Made by a program: the position numbers and the translations under genes
The notes under the pieces: generated by a model
What the model was told of the DNA's origin: nothing
Database searches by the model: none
Seen by the model: the letters and a program-made list of their open reading frames with translations, nothing else
Virus record (IMG/VR): IMGVR_UViG_3300005253_000077
Span: 1 to 36,079 of that record
From: a virus
Length of the DNA stretch: 36,079 bases
Strand: one strand, 5' to 3'
Part shown: one piece after another, positions 3,076 to 34,899 of the stretch
How positions within the stretch are numbered: the first letter of the stretch is position 1
How the letters are laid out: each line of letters begins with the position of its first letter

Positions 3076-3289
3076 ACGTGAATGGCGGAAGGCGCTACGG
3101 CCTATCGAAAGAGCCCTTAGGCAGATCTCGTCCGGCCTCCGCTGGTGTCAGCGGCCATGGTGCAAGCATGAATGGGGCATACACGTTACGGCCAAGTTTC
3201 GATTGAACAAGAAGGGAAAGCGTATATGGCCGGGAAAGATAACCAGGGCCGTAGCGAAGTGTCAATTCTGTGGGATACGGATGCCATGA
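3053..3289 (+). CDS. Basic zinc-like protein with CxH...CxxC motif (78 aa)
   Basis: The ATG at 3053 sits behind GGAGGACGCC and overlaps the end of the previous gene. The same frame runs back to 2930, but that part lies inside the upstream gene. The product is basic and has C-K-H-x-W near residue 37 and C-Q-F-C-G near residue 70. This is the same arrangement as the product of 1116-1424, suggesting a related small zinc-binding fold. The stop overlaps the next ATG. Confidence 0.55.
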   Translation: MSRPTAIEREWRKALRPIERALRQISSGLRWCQRPWCKHEWGIHVTAKFRLNKKGKRIWPGKITRAVAKCQFCGIRMP

Positions 3290-3576
3290 GGCTGATCCCG
3301 CGCTGGGTCTGGAGGCTGATACCGCATGAGCACCTGTACGTTGTGCCGTCCATAACGGTGAGGATAGGTGAGCCGGTAAGGTTTGAAGTGAAGCCTTGCT
3401 CACGGTGTGCGAAAGAGGTACCGGGATGGCCTGACCTCATGGCGCTGGTCGATGCGTGGCAAGCCCGGAAGCACGCGCGTGCGGCACAGCAGCGTGGGCA
3501 GCATCGCTCTCGCAGGAGGAAAAGCTGGAGATCATCAAGGCGGAGAATCAGCGCTGCAAGGGCGTGCTGGGGCTGA
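3286..3576 (+). CDS. Hypothetical protein, tandem paralogue 1, probably frameshifted at its 3' end
   Basis: The ATG overlaps the preceding TGA. The N-terminus MRLIPRWVWRLI is nearly identical to that of the next gene (3581), indicating local duplication. A C-x2-C pair (CSRC) lies near residue 41. After about residue 65 the reading becomes a low-complexity Arg/Ser tail. A different frame (3435-3584) there encodes a well-behaved helix and ends exactly in ATGA over the next start. A one-base deletion, a sequence error or a -1 shift is likely. Confidence 0.5.
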   Translation: MRLIPRWVWRLIPHEHLYVVPSITVRIGEPVRFEVKPCSRCAKEVPGWPDLMALVDAWQARKHARAAQQRGQHRSRRRKSWRSSRRRISAARACWG

Positions 3577-3584
3577 GGCCATGA
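3456..3584 (+). CDS. Possible true C-terminal part of the 3286 gene in another frame (or a separate 42-aa ORF)
   Basis: This frame opens after a TGA at 3432-3434 and has only a GTG at 3456 with no ribosome binding site, so independent initiation is doubtful. It encodes a credible charged helix (SLSQEEKLEIIKAENQRCKG) and ends on the ATGA overlapping the start at 3581, matching the coupling rule of the neighbours. I infer it is the displaced 3' end of the preceding gene. Confidence 0.35.
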   Translation: MASPEARACGTAAWAASLSQEEKLEIIKAENQRCKGVLGLRP

Positions 3585-3832
3585 GACTCATCCCGCGCTG
3601 GCTCTGGAAGTTGATACGGCACAAGTGCTGCTTCCGACCGAGCCATCTGGTGAAGACGTTCCTGGGCCACAGGCAGTTCAATCAGAAGCAAGTGGGAAAT
3701 ACGGCACTGATGAAATGCCGGTGCGGCATGCAGACGTTTCGATCACTCCGGCCGGATCAACCAGACCCCTATGCTCTATATGTGAATTATGTGAAGACGG
3801 GACGGTTCAGGGGTAAGGTGATGAGCGTATGA
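3581..3832 (+). CDS. Hypothetical protein, tandem paralogue 2 (83 aa)
   Basis: It starts MRLIPRWLWKLIRHK, closely matching the start of the gene at 3286, and has a CRCG motif near residue 47 where the paralogue has CSRC. The frame also runs upstream to 3407 but that segment overlaps the paralogue. The product is basic with a Tyr-rich C-terminus. Function unknown. Two diverged copies side by side suggest duplication followed by divergence. Confidence 0.6.
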   Translation: MRLIPRWLWKLIRHKCCFRPSHLVKTFLGHRQFNQKQVGNTALMKCRCGMQTFRSLRPDQPDPYALYVNYVKTGRFRGKVMSV

Positions 3833-11926: not shown

Positions 11927-12145
11927 ATGAAGCTCGTAGTCAAAGACAAGTGCGTTGTGAACGAGAGTTTTCAGGTGGGTGACCCACCGCATGTTCGGGA
12001 AAAGTCTCGCAAGTTTCTGGCTGGACAAGAGTTCGAGGTGAGTGAGGCCCGGGGTAAGCAGCTCCTGGGCATCACCCCTTGCACGGTGCAGCCGGCCGGC
12101 CTGGTCGCTCAGGTGAAAGAGAAGCTCAAGAAGGTCAAGAAGTAA
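11927..12145 (+). CDS. Small hypothetical head-region protein (72 aa)
   Basis: The ATG at 11927 is preceded by the strong site AAGGAGGAAACC. The frame runs to 11894 but that portion lies inside the preceding gene. The product starts with beta-type sequence, contains a FLAGQEFEVSEARGKQLL stretch and ends in a Lys-rich tail. Short proteins of this kind are common between capsid and connector genes. Function unknown. Confidence 0.65.
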   Translation: MKLVVKDKCVVNESFQVGDPPHVREKSRKFLAGQEFEVSEARGKQLLGITPCTVQPAGLVAQVKEKLKKVKK

Positions 12146-12169
12146 CAGGGCCGACGGAGCAGCGGGTGG

Positions 12170-12754
12170 ATGGCGGACTATGTAACGCTTGTCGAGGTCA
12201 AGAACCATATAAGCCTCGAACAAGATTCGACGGAGCAGGACACCAAACTGACCGCCATGATCAAGCAAGCGCAGAAGGCCATCGAGACCTGGACCGGGAC
12301 ATGGTGGGACGCTCGAACCAAGACCATTCAGACCGAAGCGACTCACAGACGTCAGATCAAGCTGTTCATGCCGGCCCGGATCATCAGCCTTACCAGCGTC
12401 ACGGACGGGGTCGAGGGCGGGACTCAGACGGGCACGGTGATTCTAGCAGCGGACCTTCGGGTTTACGAGACATACATCGAAAGAAGCGGGAGGGTATTTT
12501 GGAGCGACGAGCAACTGGACATCGAGGTGGTGGGGAGCTTCGGGTACACGGTGGTGCCCGACGACATCAAGGTTCTCACCCTCGAGACCATCGGTATTCT
12601 GGCGGCCATGAAGCAGAAGTCGTTCACTCAGGACGATGGAGTCGAGCGCACGGTCTTACTGAACGCACTCCCGACCTGGGTCAAGGAGATCATCCAATCT
12701 CGCCGGATGCACAACTTCGTCAATCAGCCGTGGCTGATCACCCCGGTCGAGTAG
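12170..12754 (+). CDS. Head-tail connector protein (HK97 gp6-like)
   Basis: The 194-aa product begins VTLVEVKNHISLEQ, then TKLTAMIKQAQKAIETWTG, the layout of the gp6/gp15-type adaptor family that forms a ring under the portal. The helical core and C-terminal region also fit. Its place after the capsid genes and before the tail tube is the standard one. Confidence 0.75.
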   Translation: MADYVTLVEVKNHISLEQDSTEQDTKLTAMIKQAQKAIETWTGTWWDARTKTIQTEATHRRQIKLFMPARIISLTSVTDGVEGGTQTGTVILAADLRVYETYIERSGRVFWSDEQLDIEVVGSFGYTVVPDDIKVLTLETIGILAAMKQKSFTQDDGVERTVLLNALPTWVKEIIQSRRMHNFVNQPWLITPVE

Positions 12755-15313: not shown

Positions 15314-16944
15314 TGGCGAGATTTAACTTCCTCCAGTACACCATCTCGGTCGAGAAGAAGACCGGGGCTATCGTTAAAGTCCAGACGGAGCTAAAGGGCG
15401 TCGAGCAGGCCGGCAAACGTGTTGAACAGGGCGCCAAGAAAATGGAGTCCGCCTTCGGCGGCATCGGGTCCACGCTCAAGACGATCGGAATTGCTGCTTT
15501 CCTGTTCAGCGCGGTCAAGCAAGCAACGGCAGCCAGCGATTCGCTAAACGAGCTCAATAGCGCATGGAAGGAAGGCGTCGGCACGATCATCAATGAGTTC
15601 GAGCCTGCCCTTGCTCTTATGAGTCGCGGCCTGCAGGGCGTCATCTTGTTAATCACTGGATTAGTGAAGGTCATCAGTACCGGATTCAAGGGGGCCCTTG
15701 AGGTGATCACGAAGCTGCTCGCGCGGGACTTCACGGGTGCATTGAAGGCGGCCGAGACCACGGTCGAAGTGGGCTTCGAGAATATCCTTGACACCATTCA
15801 GGCGGCCGGCGATCGTGCGGCCCAGATCACGCGCGTCAGCGAACAGGTGCAAAGCAAGATCATCCTAGAGGAAGGTAAAATCCGCCTGGGGAATCTGAGC
15901 CTTACTGGCGAAGAGCGGCTGGCGCTTGTTGACGACATAGAGAAGCGTGCGCTGGCAGTTCTGAGGGCTTCGGGCGAATTCCTGATTGCCGATAAGACGC
16001 GCCAGGCCAAGCTGGAGATTGAAATCCTCAAAGAGCTGGCTACAGAACGGGAAGCGGCGCAGCGCGAAATTATCACCAATGACACGATCCTGGCTCAGAC
16101 GCAGGCAGAAATTCGTCAGGTGGCGATTGATGATGAGGCGACGTCAGCCGAAGAGCGACAGGAACTTCTTGTTGAACAGCTGGCTCTACGGATAGAAGCC
16201 ATCCAACAAGCCGCTCAGGTTCAATCGCTGACAGAGGAAACTGTTAACGCAAAGATAGAGCTGGCAACGCTCAAGCACATAAAGACTCTAAAGAAACTCA
16301 AGGATGATCAGTTCAAGGGTGATGTAGCGGCCACGAAGAATGACCTTAATCTGAAGCTCAAGGCTTTGAAGACCACGACGGGCCTCGATGCTCAACGGAT
16401 AGCGGGCATTAGCTCTGCCGCATCCGCCGAGTTACAGATCGCTGGCAATGCAGCCAATGCAGCGCGCGCTGGTGGAGCTCAGGCAGTAAAAGATGCAGGA
16501 GCTTTTGCAGCCCGGATCATATCGATCAAAGGTGCAGAGGCAACGGCCCGGGCCTTCGCTGCTGCTGGCGGATTCCCGCTCGGGATTCCGGCTGCGATCG
16601 CTACTGCCGCAGTCTATGCTGGGCTGGCGGCAACTGTGTCGGCCATTAGCGGAGCCGTCGCCGCAAAGATCGCACCACCAAGTGGGGGTGGTGCTGCAGG
16701 ACCGGCCGGCCCTGGAGGTGGAGCATTCGGCTTTCCGACACCTGTTGAGGTTGTAGAGCCTGTTGGTGGTGGCGGTGGCTTTACTCCATCCGAAGCTGCA
16801 GTGGTTCCTGGTGCGGCTCCTGGATTCGGCCGTGAAGATGGTGGCGGTCCAGTAGCGATCGTGCAGGTCTTCACCGTGGCTGGTAAGATACCGCCCGAAA
16901 CGGCAAAGCTGATCGCGCAAGCGTTGAGAGACAATCAGAGGTAG
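15313..16944 (+). CDS. Tail tape measure protein
   Basis: The 543-aa product is mostly helical, with an N-terminal beta-alpha segment, hydrophobic spans (about residues 105-135 and 410-450) and a long coiled-coil middle (about 190-370). The C-terminus is Gly/Pro/Ala-rich. This is the usual composition of a tape measure, which sets tail length and is ejected into the host envelope. It is short for the family, so a short siphovirus tail is expected. No transglycosylase or peptidase domain is visible. Confidence 0.8.
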   Translation: MARFNFLQYTISVEKKTGAIVKVQTELKGVEQAGKRVEQGAKKMESAFGGIGSTLKTIGIAAFLFSAVKQATAASDSLNELNSAWKEGVGTIINEFEPALALMSRGLQGVILLITGLVKVISTGFKGALEVITKLLARDFTGALKAAETTVEVGFENILDTIQAAGDRAAQITRVSEQVQSKIILEEGKIRLGNLSLTGEERLALVDDIEKRALAVLRASGEFLIADKTRQAKLEIEILKELATEREAAQREIITNDTILAQTQAEIRQVAIDDEATSAEERQELLVEQLALRIEAIQQAAQVQSLTEETVNAKIELATLKHIKTLKKLKDDQFKGDVAATKNDLNLKLKALKTTTGLDAQRIAGISSAASAELQIAGNAANAARAGGAQAVKDAGAFAARIISIKGAEATARAFAAAGGFPLGIPAAIATAAVYAGLAATVSAISGAVAAKIAPPSGGGAAGPAGPGGGAFGFPTPVEVVEPVGGGGGFTPSEAAVVPGAAPGFGREDGGGPVAIVQVFTVAGKIPPETAKLIAQALRDNQR

Positions 16945-28095: not shown

Positions 28096-28680
28096 ATGGC
28101 GTCCTTTCAGCTCGCCATCGTCAAGACTCTCCGGGCCGAAGGGGTTTTGTATGGGGATGACGGTCAGCCGATCATGGGAAGGACCGGCTACGGCAATCAC
28201 CCGCGAGACCCCGGCCGAGAGACGAACTTCGGCGTCACACATCAAACAGCGATGGAGTACGGGTACAACGGGTCCATGCGACATATTCCGTACTGGAAGG
28301 TCCTGGAGATTTATAAGAAGTATTTCTGGGACCTGCTGCGGTGCGATGAGGTTGTGCATCAAGGCGTCGCTGAAGAGCTGTTTGATACCGCAGTCAACTG
28401 CGGCCCATGGTATGCGGTGAGTTTTCTGCAGCGAGCCATGAACAAACTGAACAATCGACAGACGCTCTATCCGGACATAACGCTGGATGGCCGCATGGGG
28501 CCACAGACCGTCAAGGTTTTAGGAGAAGCTCTCAAGTGTGGAGATCAGCATCGGGAAGCTCTGTTGATCTTCGTGAACTGTCAGCAGGGTTGCCGCTATC
28601 TTGACATTGCGGATGCGAATGAAGACTGGGAGGCGTTTATTAAGGGCATCGCTCGGCGCGTGAGGTTGAACGGAACATGA
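28096..28680 (+). CDS. Endolysin, GH108-type N-acetylmuramidase with peptidoglycan-binding domain
   Basis: The 194-aa product cuts the glycan strand of peptidoglycan to release progeny. The likely catalytic Glu15 lies in LRAEGV, and the family's DPG-x-ETNFG-V-T motif is at residues 38-47. The family commonly has Gly-Gly where Gly-Arg occurs here. The second half (about 95-180), with VSFLQRAMN and LDGRMGPQTVKVL, matches the small binding domain that follows GH108 domains. There is no signal peptide, so it should rely on a holin. Confidence 0.85.
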   Translation: MASFQLAIVKTLRAEGVLYGDDGQPIMGRTGYGNHPRDPGRETNFGVTHQTAMEYGYNGSMRHIPYWKVLEIYKKYFWDLLRCDEVVHQGVAEELFDTAVNCGPWYAVSFLQRAMNKLNNRQTLYPDITLDGRMGPQTVKVLGEALKCGDQHREALLIFVNCQQGCRYLDIADANEDWEAFIKGIARRVRLNGT

Positions 28681-29339
28681 TCTGGATATTGACCAGCATC
28701 CTCGGCAGCCCTGCCAAGGCGAAGAAGATGTGGCGCTGGCTCCGGTGGGTACTGCTCGCAGCGATCGTGCTCGCGGTGGGCTCGGCAACCTTGACCACGA
28801 TCAGGATCGTAGCGAAGGAGAAGACCGCCCGGGTACAGGCCGAGAAGTATGCCGTCGAGCTTCAGGGTTACTACGACACCGCCCAGGCCGCCATCATTCA
28901 CAAGGATCGTCAGCTCAAGCAGGCCCGTGAGAAGTTGAAGAAGCGCAAGCGCAAGAAGACGACGCACACGACCTTCGACCCCGTGACAGGTTTGCCGATC
29001 GACAAGGTGGAAACGGAAGAAGAGGAGGAGAGCGAGAGTGATCGATCCAGTAGCAGCGAGGATGCACGGTCGCCCGATGTCCCGATTGCTACGCCTACGG
29101 CGCCGGCTAGCTTGCTTGCACCGTCATGTCCTGGGCTGAGGCCTCTTGGCTTCGCTGCTGGCATCGACAAAGATGGTCGGCTGGCCGCCGGCCTACGGTG
29201 GCGACTCATTCCTCGAGTGGTCCTGCCGATCCTGCCGGACATCTCCGTCAGCATCGAAGGGCTGGGCACCGACATCATGGGCCGGCCGGGCGGCATGATC
29301 TTGGCTGACATTGAGTTCTGGAGGCCCGCCAGCCGCTAA
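28677..29339 (+). CDS. Membrane-anchored lysis-accessory protein (220 aa), spanin-like
   Basis: The ATG overlaps the endolysin stop (ATGA). After a basic start there is one membrane span (about 22-42), then a coiled coil with Lys-rich end (about 46-95), an acidic/Ser patch (about 113-130) and a hydrophobic, strand-rich C-terminal third. Position after the endolysin and the N-terminal anchor plus coiled coil suggest an inner-membrane spanin. There is no lipobox gene within it, and the extra C-terminal domain is unusual. Function remains inferred. Confidence 0.5.
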   Translation: MIWILTSILGSPAKAKKMWRWLRWVLLAAIVLAVGSATLTTIRIVAKEKTARVQAEKYAVELQGYYDTAQAAIIHKDRQLKQAREKLKKRKRKKTTHTTFDPVTGLPIDKVETEEEEESESDRSSSSEDARSPDVPIATPTAPASLLAPSCPGLRPLGFAAGIDKDGRLAAGLRWRLIPRVVLPILPDISVSIEGLGTDIMGRPGGMILADIEFWRPASR

Positions 29340-29341
29340 AG

Positions 29342-29371
29342 TTATCCACAAGTTATCCACAATTATCAACA
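29342..29371 (+). promoter_or_regulatory. Cluster of three DnaA boxes
   Basis: TTATCCACA occurs exactly at 29342-29350 and again at 29353-29361, and TTATCAACA (one mismatch) at 29363-29371. All face the same way with 1-2 bases between them. TTATCCACA is the consensus binding site of bacterial DnaA, and tight tandem copies are typical of origins. Confidence 0.8.
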
Positions 29372-29392
29372 GTCCCGAAACACAAGCCCTGC

Positions 29393-29408
29393 TGTTTCAC
29401 GTGAAACA
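29393..29408. promoter_or_regulatory. Perfect parS centromere site (ParB-binding)
   Basis: TGTTTCACGTGAAACA is an uninterrupted 16-bp palindrome and equals the consensus parS bound by chromosomal ParB in most bacteria. No ParA or ParB gene is visible on this phage, so the expected partner is the host protein. I noticed no second copy in the window. Confidence 0.85.
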
Positions 29409-29436
29409 TTCCACCACCCCATGCGTATGGGCCGAC

Positions 29437-29455
29437 TTATCCCCATCTTTCCACA
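29437..29455 (+). promoter_or_regulatory. Two weaker DnaA-box-like sites
   Basis: TTATCCCCA (29437-29445, one mismatch to consensus) is followed one base later by CTTTCCACA (29447-29455, two mismatches). They face the same way as the upstream cluster and lie right before the trinucleotide tract. Confidence 0.45.
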
Positions 29456-29458
29456 GCA

Positions 29459-29482
29459 CTACTACTATCTTCTCTTCTTCTA
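29459..29482 (+). promoter_or_regulatory. DnaA-trio-like repeated trinucleotide tract
   Basis: Three CTA repeats are followed by CT-rich triplets (CTT/CTC/TTC) ending in CTA. The complementary strand reads as successive GAT and GAA type triplets, like the DnaA-trio element that loads DnaA onto single-stranded DNA in bacterial origins. It starts three bases after the second weak DnaA box, the expected order. Confidence 0.4.
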
Positions 29483-29494
29483 GGATGAAGACTT

Positions 29495-29519
29495 AAAGCC
29501 TAGAGAGACTCAAAGCCTA
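29495..29519. repeat. Short direct repeats AAAGCCTA
   Basis: AAAGCCTA occurs at 29495-29502 and 29512-29519, with start points 17 bases apart, just upstream of the -35 box. They may be binding sites for a regulator or remnants of origin repeats. Confidence 0.4.
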
Positions 29520-29528
29520 AGAGGGGGC

Positions 29529-29557
29529 TTGACACGAAGCCGAACGGCTGCTACTCT
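29529..29557 (+). promoter_or_regulatory. Sigma70-like extended -10 promoter of the early operon
   Basis: TTGACA (29529-29534), 17 bases, then TACTCT (29552-29557), with TG one base before the -10 (29549-29550) as an extended -10 element. Transcription would begin near 29564. It faces the recombination/SSB gene run, all on the same strand. Confidence 0.7.
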
Positions 29558-29563
29558 GACCTC

Positions 29564-29582
29564 GTGATCGATGGTCGATCAC
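29564..29582. promoter_or_regulatory. Perfect inverted repeat at the early transcription start
   Basis: GTGATCGA-TGG-TCGATCAC is an 8-bp perfect inverted repeat with a 3-base centre, starting at the predicted +1. It could be an operator for a phage or host repressor, or a stabilising hairpin at the 5' end of the early mRNA. Confidence 0.5.
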
Positions 29583-29606
29583 AACAACGACAACGGAGGA
29601 ATGACG

Positions 29607-29951
29607 ATGGATGAGATGGACGAAATTAATGAGATTGATGTTGCGGAGCAACACGTTGATGATGGGGAATGTCCGTGTCCGCTTTGTCGGCTTGCTGTAA
29701 AGATTCGCGCCCGTTATTGGGAAGCCAGAGATAAGCTCCGAAAGATATTCACCCATCAATGCGTGTGGAAGTCGGGCGGGAAGATTCCGTGGAAGACGTG
29801 TTCGGATTCCGATGTGATGATGGAACTTGAGACATTTTGGTGCGCCAAGTGCGGGAAGATTTACATTCCCGTACTTGACGATATACCGTTTCACCCGAAC
29901 CACAAAGGCTGCATCGTGCCTGTTCTACCTTCGGCATCTGATATAACATGA
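29607..29951 (+). CDS. Zinc-ribbon protein with a MuF-like C-terminal motif (114 aa)
   Basis: The GGAGG at 29595-29599 is best spaced for the ATG at 29607. The same frame opens at 29571 inside the palindrome. The product is acidic at first, then has C-P-C-P-L-C (about residue 22) and WCAKCGKIY (about 79). The end, DIPFHPNHKGCIVP, closely resembles the end of the portal-MuF fusion (EFHPNHKGAIVP, 8928-8965), including a trailing Ala-x-Asp-Ile. It is the first gene of the early operon. Function unknown. Confidence 0.65.
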   Translation: MDEMDEINEIDVAEQHVDDGECPCPLCRLAVKIRARYWEARDKLRKIFTHQCVWKSGGKIPWKTCSDSDVMMELETFWCAKCGKIYIPVLDDIPFHPNHKGCIVPVLPSASDIT

Positions 29952-30073
29952 CACGGGAAGCCGGTGTCGTCGTTGCCTCTGTGAAAGCGGAGCGGGTCCA
30001 GATGGGCGTGGTGTCTGTAACCTCCTCCATCCCCCGGCCGGCGACCCTTAATTTAACCAGGAGGAAACCATGA
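29948..30073 (+). CDS. Very small basic protein (41 aa)
   Basis: The ATG overlaps the previous stop (ATGA) and the TGA overlaps the next ATG. The last residues, TRRKP, are encoded by the ribosome binding site AGGAGGAAACC of the following gene. The product is Val/Arg-rich without cysteines. The coupling on both sides fits this genome's pattern, but the peptide may serve mainly as a translated linker. Confidence 0.4.
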   Translation: MTREAGVVVASVKAERVQMGVVSVTSSIPRPATLNLTRRKP

Positions 30074-30786
30074 AGACCGGATCAGCAGTTGCATCACGAC
30101 CACAGACAGCGAGTCTCGTGCCCGCATCATTCACACCTGAGAACGCCCAGGAAGCCGAAGAATTAGTCAAAAGAACTCTGGGCATCAAAGACTTGACGCA
30201 GGAGCTTGCGCGTCTCGCCCTGAAGTTGAATGAAGAATCCCAGTTGATGACCGTGGACAGTGAGGCCGACCAGCAAGCTGCGGAGATGATGCGCGGCAAG
30301 TACGCGGCCGGATTGAGTCGAGTAATAGCTGCGAAGGAGCAATACTCGAAGCCGTGGTATCGGTTTTTCAAGCTGGTCAATGGATGCTTCTCTCTGACGG
30401 AAGACTCGTTCGGTCAAGGGAAGAATCGCATGTCGGGATTGATGGCAGGCTGGCAGCGAGCCAAAGAAGACAGAGCGCGACAAGAGCGTGACCGTTTGCA
30501 GGCGATCCAGAACGAGAAACTTCGGAAGGAGTCACTGAAGGCCAAGAGCAAGGGGCTTCCGCCGCCACCCAAGAAGCCGGACGTAGAGGTCTCGGTGCCT
30601 CGGCACGTCGGCACATCGACGTTCGTGAAGACTTGGAACTATCGGATCACCGATGAGGATAAAATCCCGCGCGCATACTTGACTCCCGACTTTGCTAAGA
30701 TCAAAAAGATGGTGACGGGCGGGGCAAGGGATCAGGACATTCCGGGCGTGGAGATTTACCAGGAGACCGGAGTCAGGGGCGGCTGA
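30070..30786 (+). CDS. Conserved phage recombination-associated protein (238 aa)
   Basis: Strong binding site AGGAGGAAACC. The first two thirds are helical and coiled-coil (about residues 30-165) with a Pro-rich hinge (PPPPKK, about 170). The C-terminal domain has KTWNYRITDEDKIPRAYL ... DIPGVEIYQE, a segment I know from phage proteins encoded next to Erf/RecT/Rad52-type annealing proteins. Exact function unknown: a partner or regulator of recombination is the likely role, supported by the annealing candidate at 31042. Confidence 0.65.
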   Translation: MKTGSAVASRPQTASLVPASFTPENAQEAEELVKRTLGIKDLTQELARLALKLNEESQLMTVDSEADQQAAEMMRGKYAAGLSRVIAAKEQYSKPWYRFFKLVNGCFSLTEDSFGQGKNRMSGLMAGWQRAKEDRARQERDRLQAIQNEKLRKESLKAKSKGLPPPPKKPDVEVSVPRHVGTSTFVKTWNYRITDEDKIPRAYLTPDFAKIKKMVTGGARDQDIPGVEIYQETGVRGG

Positions 30787-30788
30787 CC

Positions 30789-31025
30789 GTGTTTTGCGAT
30801 GGGTGCCATCGGGAGTCTATGACGCCACTCATCCTCGAGGTTGACAGCTTCGGGCCGATGCTAATGTTTAGGGCGGTGCCGGGCGAGATAATCGCCCGGC
30901 GCTTCCGTCTCTGCCGGTCTTGCCTCGCTGGAGCCCAGGCTATTCTCAATCAGTTCAAGATGGAGTATTCTGTGTATCCGAACGAGACGATCCGGAGGCC
31001 AATGTGGACTCATCGGAATCGTTGA
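30789..31025 (+). CDS. Small zinc-finger-like protein (78 aa), GTG start
   Basis: GTG start two bases after the previous stop, with AGGGGCGG upstream. Cys pairs CDGC (3-6) and CRSC (about 42-45) could bind one zinc ion across a beta-rich domain. The C-terminus is basic. It lies between two recombination-related genes. Function unknown. Confidence 0.6.
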   Translation: MFCDGCHRESMTPLILEVDSFGPMLMFRAVPGEIIARRFRLCRSCLAGAQAILNQFKMEYSVYPNETIRRPMWTHRNR

Positions 31026-31041
31026 AGCGGAGGAGGAAACC

Positions 31042-31881
31042 ATGAAGAAGGAGTCAGTCGGGATGGTCGATGCGTTCGGGGTCGCCATCAGTTTCAAGGA
31101 TCGAGAGATGGTGGTCGCACTTCAAGATGAAGCCGACGCGATCGCCGCAGCCCGTCATCAAGTAACCGGAGAAGAGCTTCAGACGTTCGCTTATGAATTC
31201 CCGGGCAGTGATGGCAGAATGCACCACGGCCTAGCGATCGGCGGCGTAGGCTTCCTGTTCGAGTATCACTTCAAGCGGATTGCGACGTTCACTGACATGC
31301 AGGTTCACGTCTCGGAGGTCCCGCAGGAAGATGGCCGGGTGTTTACGGTGGGCATCACATGCCACGACCCGAAGGGCAACACAGCGACAGGTCTCTGCTC
31401 GACCCAGGAGCGGCCGTGCAAGCGCGGCAGCACGATCAGATATTTCAATAAGCACGCTGCACCGATCGCGCTCTCTTGCGCGAAGCGAAACGCCATGCGG
31501 GATTTACTGCCGCGCGCGATTCGGACTAAGTTTCTAAAAGAGGTCTTGGACGCGAAGCACGGTGTCGGTCGGGTGGAGTCATTGAGGCCGCGGCGGCTGG
31601 CACAACGGCGGGCCACCGATGAATGGCTGGTGCAGAACAGCGAGCTGCACAAGTTGGCGGGGCCGAAGTATCTCGACCTCGACAAAGACAGGCTGCACCG
31701 CCTAATGGAGAAGAGCGAGACCAAGCACCTGAAGCGTCCGATCACCGACATCAATCAGCTCTCGGTGGGGAGGATGCAGGTCTGGGTGCAACTGTTGGAG
31801 ATAGCAAGGAGAAACCCGGTCCAGTTACGGAAGCTCGAGGCGAACGTCGCCAAGCAGGTGCCGGGGAAGAAGCAATCATGA
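31042..31881 (+). CDS. Putative single-strand annealing/recombination protein (279 aa)
   Basis: A strong site (GGAGGAGGAAACC) precedes the ATG. The centre has regular strands, then RGSTIRYFNKHAAPIALSCA followed by KRNAMRDLLPRAI. The pattern in which a strand region is followed by a helix ending in A-x-RNA-x-R-x-L-x-P recurs in phage recombination proteins of the Rad52/Erf-like groups. The C-terminal 80 residues are helical and basic. The context (SSB, two exonuclease-like genes) supports pairing of DNA ends, but the family is not firm. Confidence 0.45.
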   Translation: MKKESVGMVDAFGVAISFKDREMVVALQDEADAIAAARHQVTGEELQTFAYEFPGSDGRMHHGLAIGGVGFLFEYHFKRIATFTDMQVHVSEVPQEDGRVFTVGITCHDPKGNTATGLCSTQERPCKRGSTIRYFNKHAAPIALSCAKRNAMRDLLPRAIRTKFLKEVLDAKHGVGRVESLRPRRLAQRRATDEWLVQNSELHKLAGPKYLDLDKDRLHRLMEKSETKHLKRPITDINQLSVGRMQVWVQLLEIARRNPVQLRKLEANVAKQVPGKKQS

Positions 31882-32232: not shown

Positions 32233-32369
32233 CACATTGAATAGGGTGTGTGCGACGGAGGAGCGCCGTCGGGAGGTAACTGGGCGAGATCACTGAGCAA
32301 CCAACGGACCCGGTCACACGCTCTGGACTTATAGAAGTGACTTTGATACAACTGATCCAGGAGGAAACC

Positions 32370-33464
32370 ATGATAGGCAAGAGGCGCAAGCCCTTTCCTG
32401 GGGCTCGCGGCATGTTTGACAAGAACTTCCCGCATGACAGCTATTCGCAGATCGCGCAGCGGATGCGCTGCCCGTCACAGTACGAATGGATATATAAGCT
32501 CGGTCATAAAATGGAAGGGCTATACCTCGAGCTGGGCGCGGTGCTACATGAGGGAGCCAGGGAGATCAACGAGCTTGCTAAGAACTCAGCCGATGGAATC
32601 GGCCCGGATGAGCTCGCCCAGGTGTTGTCTCATCCACGGCTGACGACCTTCCGGGACTTCGGGTCCTACAAGAGCGGCTGCTTTGCACTTCAGAAGTACG
32701 CCGAGATGGTTAATGAAGATCGCCGCACGATCATCGATCTTGAGATGCCCGTCCAGTTCCAGGTGGAAGTTCTGAATCGACGGACAAAGCGGAAACGGCT
32801 GGTCAAATTCAATAGTGTGATCGACCGGATCGACCGCCTAAAGGATACTCGCTACCGGTTCTGGGATTACAAGCTCGTCGGTGCGATTCGCAGCCGGGAG
32901 GAGCTGAAGAAGGATATCCAGATGAACCTGTACAACCTACAGATCAGACGGCACTATGGATATCAAGGCGAGATCGTGTGCTTCTACTTCTCGTTGCTGA
33001 CCGGCCGGATTACCGAATGCGTCTTCGATGAGTCTGACGCCGTCGCCACCGAGCGGTTCGTCATCGGCAGCATCGGGGATCAGTTGGCAGACACGAAGTT
33101 CGAGGCGCGGTTTAACGATCGATGCTGGGAGTGTGGGCGTCGGAGCTGGTGCGCTGAGTTCAAGCGTCATACGGCGTGGACTGAAAGCCAGATTTTAGAG
33201 CCGACCCTGAGGGCCTACGTCGAATCGAAGGCAGCGATCAAGGTTTTCACGGAGCGCAAGAAGATGTTGGGCGACATGCTTGGTGTCCGGATCGACCAGG
33301 AAGGGCCGGAGATCATAGAGGAAGGCTGGACAGCGTATTACAGCCATCACCCTGCACACACAGTCGCGGCGCATGACGTGGCAGCGTCAGAAGTTTTGAG
33401 TGTTACGAGGTCAGTGAGATCAGGTAGAATGCAACAACAACAACGAGCCCGGCGTGCCGGGTAG
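32370..33464 (+). CDS. PD-(D/E)XK nuclease with AddB/Cas4-type cysteine set (364 aa)
   Basis: Start at 32370 behind AGGAGGAAACC. The frame remains open back to 32280, with a GTG at 32337. The catalytic core is visible: His60 in AVLHEG, Asp152/Asp155 in IDRID, Asp167 and Lys169 in WDYKL, and Gln184/Tyr188 in QMNLY. Cys34 near the start and Cys252, Cys255 and Cys261 near the end (CWECGRRSWC) match the one-plus-three cysteines that hold an iron-sulfur cluster in AddB, Cas4 and Dna2. It probably resects DNA ends for the annealing protein. Confidence 0.78.
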   Translation: MIGKRRKPFPGARGMFDKNFPHDSYSQIAQRMRCPSQYEWIYKLGHKMEGLYLELGAVLHEGAREINELAKNSADGIGPDELAQVLSHPRLTTFRDFGSYKSGCFALQKYAEMVNEDRRTIIDLEMPVQFQVEVLNRRTKRKRLVKFNSVIDRIDRLKDTRYRFWDYKLVGAIRSREELKKDIQMNLYNLQIRRHYGYQGEIVCFYFSLLTGRITECVFDESDAVATERFVIGSIGDQLADTKFEARFNDRCWECGRRSWCAEFKRHTAWTESQILEPTLRAYVESKAAIKVFTERKKMLGDMLGVRIDQEGPEIIEEGWTAYYSHHPAHTVAAHDVAASEVLSVTRSVRSGRMQQQQRARRAG

Positions 33465-33473
33465 GAGGAAACC

Positions 33474-33704
33474 ATGAAGGTCGATGCAAGTACGATTCAT
33501 GAGCGAATGAAGTCTGTAGGGCCTCAGGGCGTGACGGTTGCCGAGATGACAACCATACTAGAGCAGCAATTCAAGGCTTGGATTGCCAGCGAATTCGAGA
33601 GCATGTTAGGCATGCACCAATGTGAGCTGGTTCTATCAAGAAGGGAAAGCGGGTATTTCGAGGAACCGCGCTTTGTTTACCTTGCAACCGGCGAGACGAA
33701 GTGA
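33474..33704 (+). CDS. Small hypothetical protein (76 aa), possible winged-helix
   Basis: A strong site (GTAGGAGGAAACC) precedes the ATG. Helices at the start and middle (GVTVAEMTTILEQQFKAW) followed by two strands at the end (CELVLSR, RFVYLATG) suggest a winged-helix-like fold. It lies between two nuclease genes. No residues allow a firmer call. Confidence 0.6.
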   Translation: MKVDASTIHERMKSVGPQGVTVAEMTTILEQQFKAWIASEFESMLGMHQCELVLSRRESGYFEEPRFVYLATGETK

Positions 33705-34405
33705 TGGCCGATACACAGCTCATCAAACTCAGCCCCTCGGACCTGACCTACGCCTGGAAGGATTGCAAGCGGTGCTTTTGGTTGAAGGCGACCGGGAAGA
33801 TGTCGAAGCCCTGGTCGCCGATGCCGGGCATCTTCACGAAGATCGACGGCAGCATGAAGGCGTATTTTCAGGATACGTCCACCGAGCGACTTGCGAAGCA
33901 GCTCGGTGTGGACATACCGGCCGGCAAGATTCGCCGAGGTCAGGAGATGGTGAAGTCGGCCGAGATCATGGCGCACGGGAAGCCCACCGGGCTATATCTT
34001 AGCGGCAAGATCGACAGCCGGATCATCTTCGAGGATGGCACGATCGGGATACCCGACTTCAAAACGTCCAAGATTGACGCGGCGAAGGCGGCCATATACG
34101 CGCCGCAGTTGAGGGCATACGCCTATTGCATCGAGCATCCGGCTGGAGGGAAGGAAGGGCTCATGGTCAGCCTGCTCGCGCTGATCGGATTCTCACCCGA
34201 GCGGTTTGGGTTTTCGAGCGGCAAGACGCCGAGCTACGGACTAACGGGATCGGGGAGTTGGGCGCCCATCGACCTAGACCGCGAGGCCTTCGAGGACCTC
34301 ATGGCTCAGATATCGACGATCGTCAATAACCCTGAGCCACCGAGCGAGGGGTCAGGGTGTGGGCTGTGCCAGTATCGGAAGCTCGCTCGCGAGCTGGGGT
34401 TTTAG
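33704..34405 (+). CDS. Second PD-(D/E)XK nuclease, Cas4-like (233 aa)
   Basis: I use the ATG at 33704, which overlaps the previous stop as TGATG. A GTG at 33701 adds one residue. The start LSPSDLTYAWKDCKRCFW is typical of RecB/Cas4-family nucleases. Asp104 (GKID), Asp118 and Lys120 (PDFKT) and Gln135/Tyr139 (QLRAYAY) form the core. Cys21, Cys24, Cys219 and Cys222 make a two-plus-two set which may bind a metal or an iron-sulfur cluster. With the 32370 gene it makes a pair of diverged nucleases, and it is not part of a CRISPR locus. Confidence 0.72.
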   Translation: MADTQLIKLSPSDLTYAWKDCKRCFWLKATGKMSKPWSPMPGIFTKIDGSMKAYFQDTSTERLAKQLGVDIPAGKIRRGQEMVKSAEIMAHGKPTGLYLSGKIDSRIIFEDGTIGIPDFKTSKIDAAKAAIYAPQLRAYAYCIEHPAGGKEGLMVSLLALIGFSPERFGFSSGKTPSYGLTGSGSWAPIDLDREAFEDLMAQISTIVNNPEPPSEGSGCGLCQYRKLARELGF

Positions 34406-34407
34406 TC

Positions 34408-34899
34408 GTGGCGTCGGGAGTGAACGTCACCTTTTTGATCGGCAATTTGGGGCGTGATCCCAAGCTGACCTATATCCCGTCCGGGACTGCATTGTGCAAA
34501 TTCAGCATCGGCGTCAACGAACGGGCCAAGATTAACGGGGAATGGACGAGCAAGGTGACGTGGTTTGATATCGTTGTCTGGGGCAAGCGCGGCGAGACTG
34601 TCGCCGAGCACCTACGCAAAGGAAGCCAGGTTTACATACGCGGTCGCATCCAGCGGGGAGAATACGAAAGCAAGAAGTCCCCGGGGCAGATCGTTAAGAC
34701 CCTGGATATCATTGCTGACGATGTGCAGTTTTTGGGCGGGAAGCCAGCGCAGCGGGAAGCAAGCGAGCAGGTGGACACGCCCCACCAGGACGACGCGCCG
34801 AGTCGGCAGACAGCAGAAGGCGGGACAACAACGGCACCATCTGCAGCACCTGATGAGCCGTTGCCTGTCTTAGAAGACGAACCGGAGAGCGAGCTATGA
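34408..34899 (+). CDS. ssb: Single-stranded DNA-binding protein (SSB)
   Basis: GTG start at 34408, two bases after the preceding stop. A second GTG at 34420 would give the more usual short start. The OB-fold segment FLIGNLGRDPKL and later WFDIVVWGK and VYIRGRIQ are characteristic of bacterial-type SSB. The 163-aa product has a disordered Ala/Pro/Thr tail ending EDEPESEL: acidic, but lacking the DIPF-type tip that recruits host partners. It coats single-stranded DNA in replication and recombination. Confidence 0.9.
   Translation: MASGVNVTFLIGNLGRDPKLTYIPSGTALCKFSIGVNERAKINGEWTSKVTWFDIVVWGKRGETVAEHLRKGSQVYIRGRIQRGEYESKKSPGQIVKTLDIIADDVQFLGGKPAQREASEQVDTPHQDDAPSRQTAEGGTTTAPSAAPDEPLPVLEDEPESEL

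Follow-up and report, generated by a model that had tools for sequence, protein, structure and literature searches.

A phage intergenic region with DnaA boxes, a DnaA-trio module and a perfect parS is a probable host-DnaA-dependent replication origin

We analysed the whole 36,079-nucleotide stretch of the IMG/VR virus record IMGVR_UViG_3300005253_000077 (hereafter the window), and its non-coding gap at 29340-29570 is probably (at a probability of about 0.65) a phage replication origin that depends on host DnaA and contains a built-in site for host ParB. Through this element, the phage probably starts and steers the copying of its own DNA with proteins of the host chromosome in place of proteins of its own. 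The record carries an exact 120-base terminal repeat, leaving 35,959 unique bases, and the phage genome is therefore probably complete. The gap separates a lysis-side gene (28677-29339) from the first early gene (29571-29951), and its GC content was 48%, compared with 58% genome-wide. The features of the gap and of the early module are as follows.

29340-29570, no strand: oriC-like element, the non-coding gap of 231 bp between the chosen ORFs
29342-29350, + strand: DnaA box TTATCCACA, perfect
29353-29361, + strand: DnaA box TTATCCACA, perfect
29363-29371, + strand: DnaA box TTATCAACA, one mismatch
29393-29408, no strand: parS TGTTTCACGTGAAACA, a perfect 16-bp palindrome
29437-29445, + strand: upstream DnaA box of the unwinding module (BUS), TTATCCCCA, one mismatch
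29447-29455, + strand: second DnaA box of the BUS, CTTTCCACA, one mismatch to TTTTCCACA
29459-29482, no strand: DnaA-trio tract CTACTACTATCTTCTCTTCTTCTA (lower strand 3'-GATGATGAT...), 13 bp past the upstream box
29445-29530, no strand: putative DNA unwinding element, the weakest duplex of the genome
29529-29557, + strand: possible early promoter TTGACA-N17-TACTCT with a weak -10, assigned by eye
32337-33464, + strand: PD-(D/E)XK exonuclease of the early module (Pfam PDDEXK_1 1.8e-17, phrog_69)
33701-34405, + strand: second PD-(D/E)XK nuclease (PDDEXK_1 6.7e-8)
34357-34899, + strand: single-strand DNA-binding protein, SSB (phrog_44 3.5e-37; Pfam SSB)

The five DnaA boxes, two of them perfect, all lie on the + strand and span 114 bp around parS, the nearest being 21 bp upstream and 28 bp downstream of it. 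DnaA-box words with at most one mismatch occurred ten times genome-wide, and five of these fell inside the gap. Compared with the five observed, 400 simulated genomes gave at most two boxes per 115 bp on one strand, and 20,000 simulations at the gap's own composition gave at most three. The candidate promoter at 29529-29557 was not picked up by a promoter scan.

The bacterial BUS is composed of one or more DnaA boxes, a spacer (most commonly 13 bp) and DnaA-trios (3'-GAT-5'), and is recognised by box(es) within mismatch limits at a set distance from at least three DnaA-trios (PMC8287927). The phage module has the same order, with the upstream box TTATCCCCA, 13 bp holding the second box CTTTCCACA, then CTACTACTA and a pyrimidine tract, so that its sequence agrees with this definition. 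CTAx3 was found once in the genome, at the trio tract, and none of 300 simulated genomes contained a BUS. In a nearest-neighbour profile, the weakest 50-, 70- and 100-bp segments of the genome begin at 29459, 29445 and 29434, that is, at the trio and just beyond; by this estimate a duplex unwinding region adjoins the module. The motif and stability analyses, resting on different sequence properties, agree. Bacterial BUS origins likewise show tandem boxes, a 13-bp spacer, GAT trios, an adjacent weak duplex and extra co-oriented boxes (PMC8287927), but they are chromosomal, whereas the phage version sits on 36 kb beside lysis and early genes, without dnaA, dnaN, rpmH or gid neighbours; phage genes lie on either side where a chromosomal location would bring dnaA, rpmH, gid or parAB. 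A strict version of the phage BUS had no match in 84,980 bacterial and archaeal genomes. Searches of open-licence papers showed no report of a phage BUS or DnaA-trio, nor of a chromosomal parS that a phage carries as part of an oriC-like element. The sequence of the phage element matches the definitions of both parS and BUS; by location it is not a chromosomal oriC, but it most likely functions like one.

The parS TGTTTCACGTGAAACA lies exactly at 29393-29408, as an earlier note on this DNA had claimed, and by sequence is the 16-bp palindrome of the chromosomal type. It is the only copy in the 36,079-base genome, the next best 16-mers carrying four mismatches. The earlier note had also raised the frequency of the site in random DNA of similar composition; 3e-6 to 6e-6 sites are expected per genome (Markov orders 0-3), which excludes chance. 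Because the bare 16-mer is not rare in a viral collection of millions of contigs (at least 120 stretches), its context is stronger evidence than the site itself. A bare parS as the entire explanation was dropped on the DnaA context. The note had taken the site for a centromere that recruits host ParB; the recruitment fits a perfect parS in a phage with no detectable ParA or ParB, but a stand-alone centromere is less likely given the flanking DnaA boxes, DnaA-trio and weak duplex, which that reading had overlooked.

Recognised genes encode a DNA methyltransferase, terminase, portal, protease, capsid, tail, a GH108 endolysin, two PD-(D/E)XK nucleases and an SSB, with the SSB and the recombination nucleases just downstream of the oriC-like element. 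Pfam and PHROGs searches of the 57 ORFs (the PHROGs alignment scan covered the 25 most-matched families, and many early-region proteins were additionally scanned one by one) found no ParA, ParB, DnaA, Rep, integrase, helicase, primase or polymerase, and recognised no repressor or other lysogeny gene. A profile search for ParB-like proteins, a check proposed earlier, was run in six frames with ParB_N and found none in the phage genome, while control genomes gave a signal. The claim that no partition genes are present was thus borne out by both searches, and parA and parB are not encoded alongside the site as in a self-contained ParABS. With neither protein detectable, presumably only host ParB could read the parS. 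Many tailed phages encode an initiator or, failing that, a helicase loader. Here, use of the host replisome is proposed because no phage initiator, helicase, primase or polymerase was recognisable. The proteins encoded at 29571-31881 had no family assignment in Pfam or PHROGs, and an unrecognised initiator is therefore possible among them; a single-sequence fold prediction of the 31042-31881 protein was uninformative (pLDDT 37). Relatives of this protein and of the 32337-33464 protein were not found, and the portal relatives were two distant 5-kb fragments (54% and 52% identity), both ending short of the oriC-like region. Most relatives of the GH108 endolysin come from phages that infect Gram-negative bacteria, which suggests a Gram-negative host. 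Scans of the phage for tRNA and Rfam families returned none.

A scan of 84,980 bacterial and archaeal species for a parS flanked by boxes, with strand order and spacing fixed, matched three loci. Two are on Treponema contigs (L136 and L138) with gyrB/gyrA-like genes, and the third is in Clostridia (L137), in an rpmH-yidC-parAB type of context with rnpA-, yidC-, parA- and parB-like genes (all named by eye from translations). Because all three are chromosomal-origin neighbourhoods by these gene names, the phage element resembles a real, though rarely so compact, oriC-parS arrangement. Like the phage element, these origins have DnaA boxes on either side of a perfect parS within a single short stretch of non-coding DNA; unlike it, they adjoin gyrB/gyrA or parA/parB, and the phage has no parAB. 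None of the three genomes was judged a likely phage host. The Treponema MAGs have four perfect parS interleaved with many DnaA boxes, an unusually parS-rich chromosomal origin.

Since parS is embedded in an oriC-like element, DnaA-dependent initiation is the likeliest primary function and ParB would be accessory. Judged from this arrangement, the five boxes, which share one orientation, would be bound by host DnaA. From the tandem pair at 29437-29455, DnaA would spread onto the trio at 29459 and open the weak duplex beside it, where host helicase and replisome would load. Host ParB would be loaded as a CTP clamp at the parS, which lies amid the boxes, and may in turn recruit host ParA and/or SMC to new phage origins, hold these origins close or segregate them in the manner of sister origins, and locally tune DnaA through ParA. 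Soj/Spo0J in Bacillus is such a ParA-type route from ParB to DnaA. If true, the phage would be wholly dependent on host DnaA and ParB, with a natural minimal oriC-parS cassette of 230 bp. The effect of parS on the DnaA activity of a neighbouring origin, help versus hindrance of ParB/SMC to phage DNA, and host defence by sequestering its own initiation factors would then become testable.

Among other viruses, boxes together with parS were found in group A (L124, L125, L127, L128, L130, L135, L152) and group B (L129, L131, L132), most of which have a terminase-like gene together with, if the contig extends far enough, a T7-type primase-helicase-like gene (by eye). L153 has parS, two boxes and, adjacent, the weakest duplex of its locus. 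Two contigs that are related to each other, L148 (94 kb; 12089-12537, reverse complement) and L151 (59 kb; 1963-2597), have three to four perfect parS, with boxes next to one. A BUS without parS occurs in L139/L140, a second lineage, and in L141 (G009), where nine boxes, the BUS and a weak spot lie between lysis and early genes, a position similar to that in the phage. ParB_N was found in 0 of 9 other viral records tested, several of them short fragments. Group C (L058/L126/L134) and L133, with a single box, were not counted as composites, nor was L154, with one exact box and one with one mismatch, nor were L149/L150, whose parS is within coding sequence. In the latter, contigs of ~410 kb, parS is followed by TTTTCCACA inside a conserved gene resembling a sigma factor, and because of this conserved coding position the parS may be a coding coincidence. 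Five perfect parS within less than 1 kb were seen in each of L017 (2657-3444) and L044 (10535-11462). Across the 120 viral stretches listed, exact boxes near parS numbered 2 versus about 1.2 expected. A general association of viral parS with DnaA boxes was dropped, as this frequency is about background, and the composite is thus limited to certain lineages. That several unrelated phage lineages independently built mini chromosome origins (boxes with BUS and/or parS), at which host DnaA would start and host ParB/ParA/SMC would position phage replication, is a tentative idea, and we lean slightly against it. It would amount to mimicry of the whole origin, with the phage genome resembling a newborn host origin.

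DnaA-box arrays were also found in named phages: P483 (E. coli), S16a (Klebsiella), Bo-Finn (Butyrivibrio) and the microvirus Cap1_SP_240. As in the phage element, the boxes of these arrays are co-oriented, and most arrays lie between genes without being labelled as DnaA boxes, but the stretches read contain no parS. Escherichia phage P483 (L155), a T7-like Berlinvirus classed in Autographiviridae, carries eight DnaA-box words in one orientation, within a gap that has no annotation (1419-1544). In Klebsiella phage S16a (L160, PV239575.1), a region with few genes at about 15,600-15,780 contains seven DnaA boxes, and a CTAx4 tract, CTACTACTACTA, lies about 250 bp from the array. S16a is T7-like and encodes an RNA polymerase, a primase-helicase and a DNA polymerase of its own. 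This points to a role of DnaA boxes other than in an origin, so box arrays alone are no proof of an origin. Because T7-like phages combine such arrays with their own replisomes, another reading stays alive, in which the box array titrates host DnaA and the parS titrates or mis-positions ParB, blocking host initiation and segregation, and the phage replicates otherwise, by recombination or an unrecognised initiator. The dense arrays of S16a and P483 speak for it, as do groups A and B, in which boxes and parS occur with the T7-type primase-helicase. SGI1 uses the ParB of IncC plasmids via its own parS copies, a precedent for both stabilisation and interference, and these copies destabilise the plasmids, which was ascribed to ParB titration or competition (PMC10954446). 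We nevertheless consider titration unlikely: it needs neither the DnaA-trio nor the correct 13-bp spacing nor the placement at the genome's weakest duplex, the phage has no recognisable initiator, and a single parS per genome is a small number for titration if the copy number is not high.

As in SGI1, the window is a mobile element with a parS and no ParAB of its own (no ParB_N in six frames), and its ParB binding is putative. SGI1, with its two parS sites and its repA operon, takes the ParB of another replicon, a plasmid, whereas the phage has a chromosomal-type parS in an oriC-like element (PMC10954446). The SGI1 case of stabilisation by a borrowed parS (PMC10954446) would also suit an extrachromosomal prophage, replicated by DnaA as a mini-chromosome and partitioned by host ParAB, for which the circular-looking genome without integrase speaks and for which oriC plus parS are what a low-copy plasmid requires. 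No lysogeny gene was recognised, however, and a search with the terminase brought up no relative among 72,556 plasmid records, which makes such maintenance quite improbable. Phage-plasmids combine their own initiator and partition genes with the lack of an integrase; here the integrase is absent and rep/par genes are not recognisable. Extrachromosomal prophages such as P1 and the mycobacterial ones encode their own ParAB, which was not recognised in this phage. Like the phage element, they bring an origin and a centromere together on phage DNA, but their origins are RepA-like or RNA-based, and none of these was recognised here (PMC7157519).

A captured host oriC fragment, functionless chance motifs or a palindrome serving as operator of a phage regulator would fit the occurrence of bare parS in at least 120 viral stretches, where it is not box-associated, but is very improbable for an element for which simulation excludes chance in the phage genome, which has no host gene remnants and fits tightly between phage genes, and whose layout was seen again in unrelated phages. 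Compared with this and the preceding alternatives, initiation by host DnaA with ParB as accessory is the reading that we prefer.

Elsewhere in the window, the overlapping small ORFs at 3172-3576 and 3407-3832 hold the near-duplicate peptides MRLIPRWVWRLIPHEH and MRLIPRWLWKLIRHKC, which suggests a local duplication.
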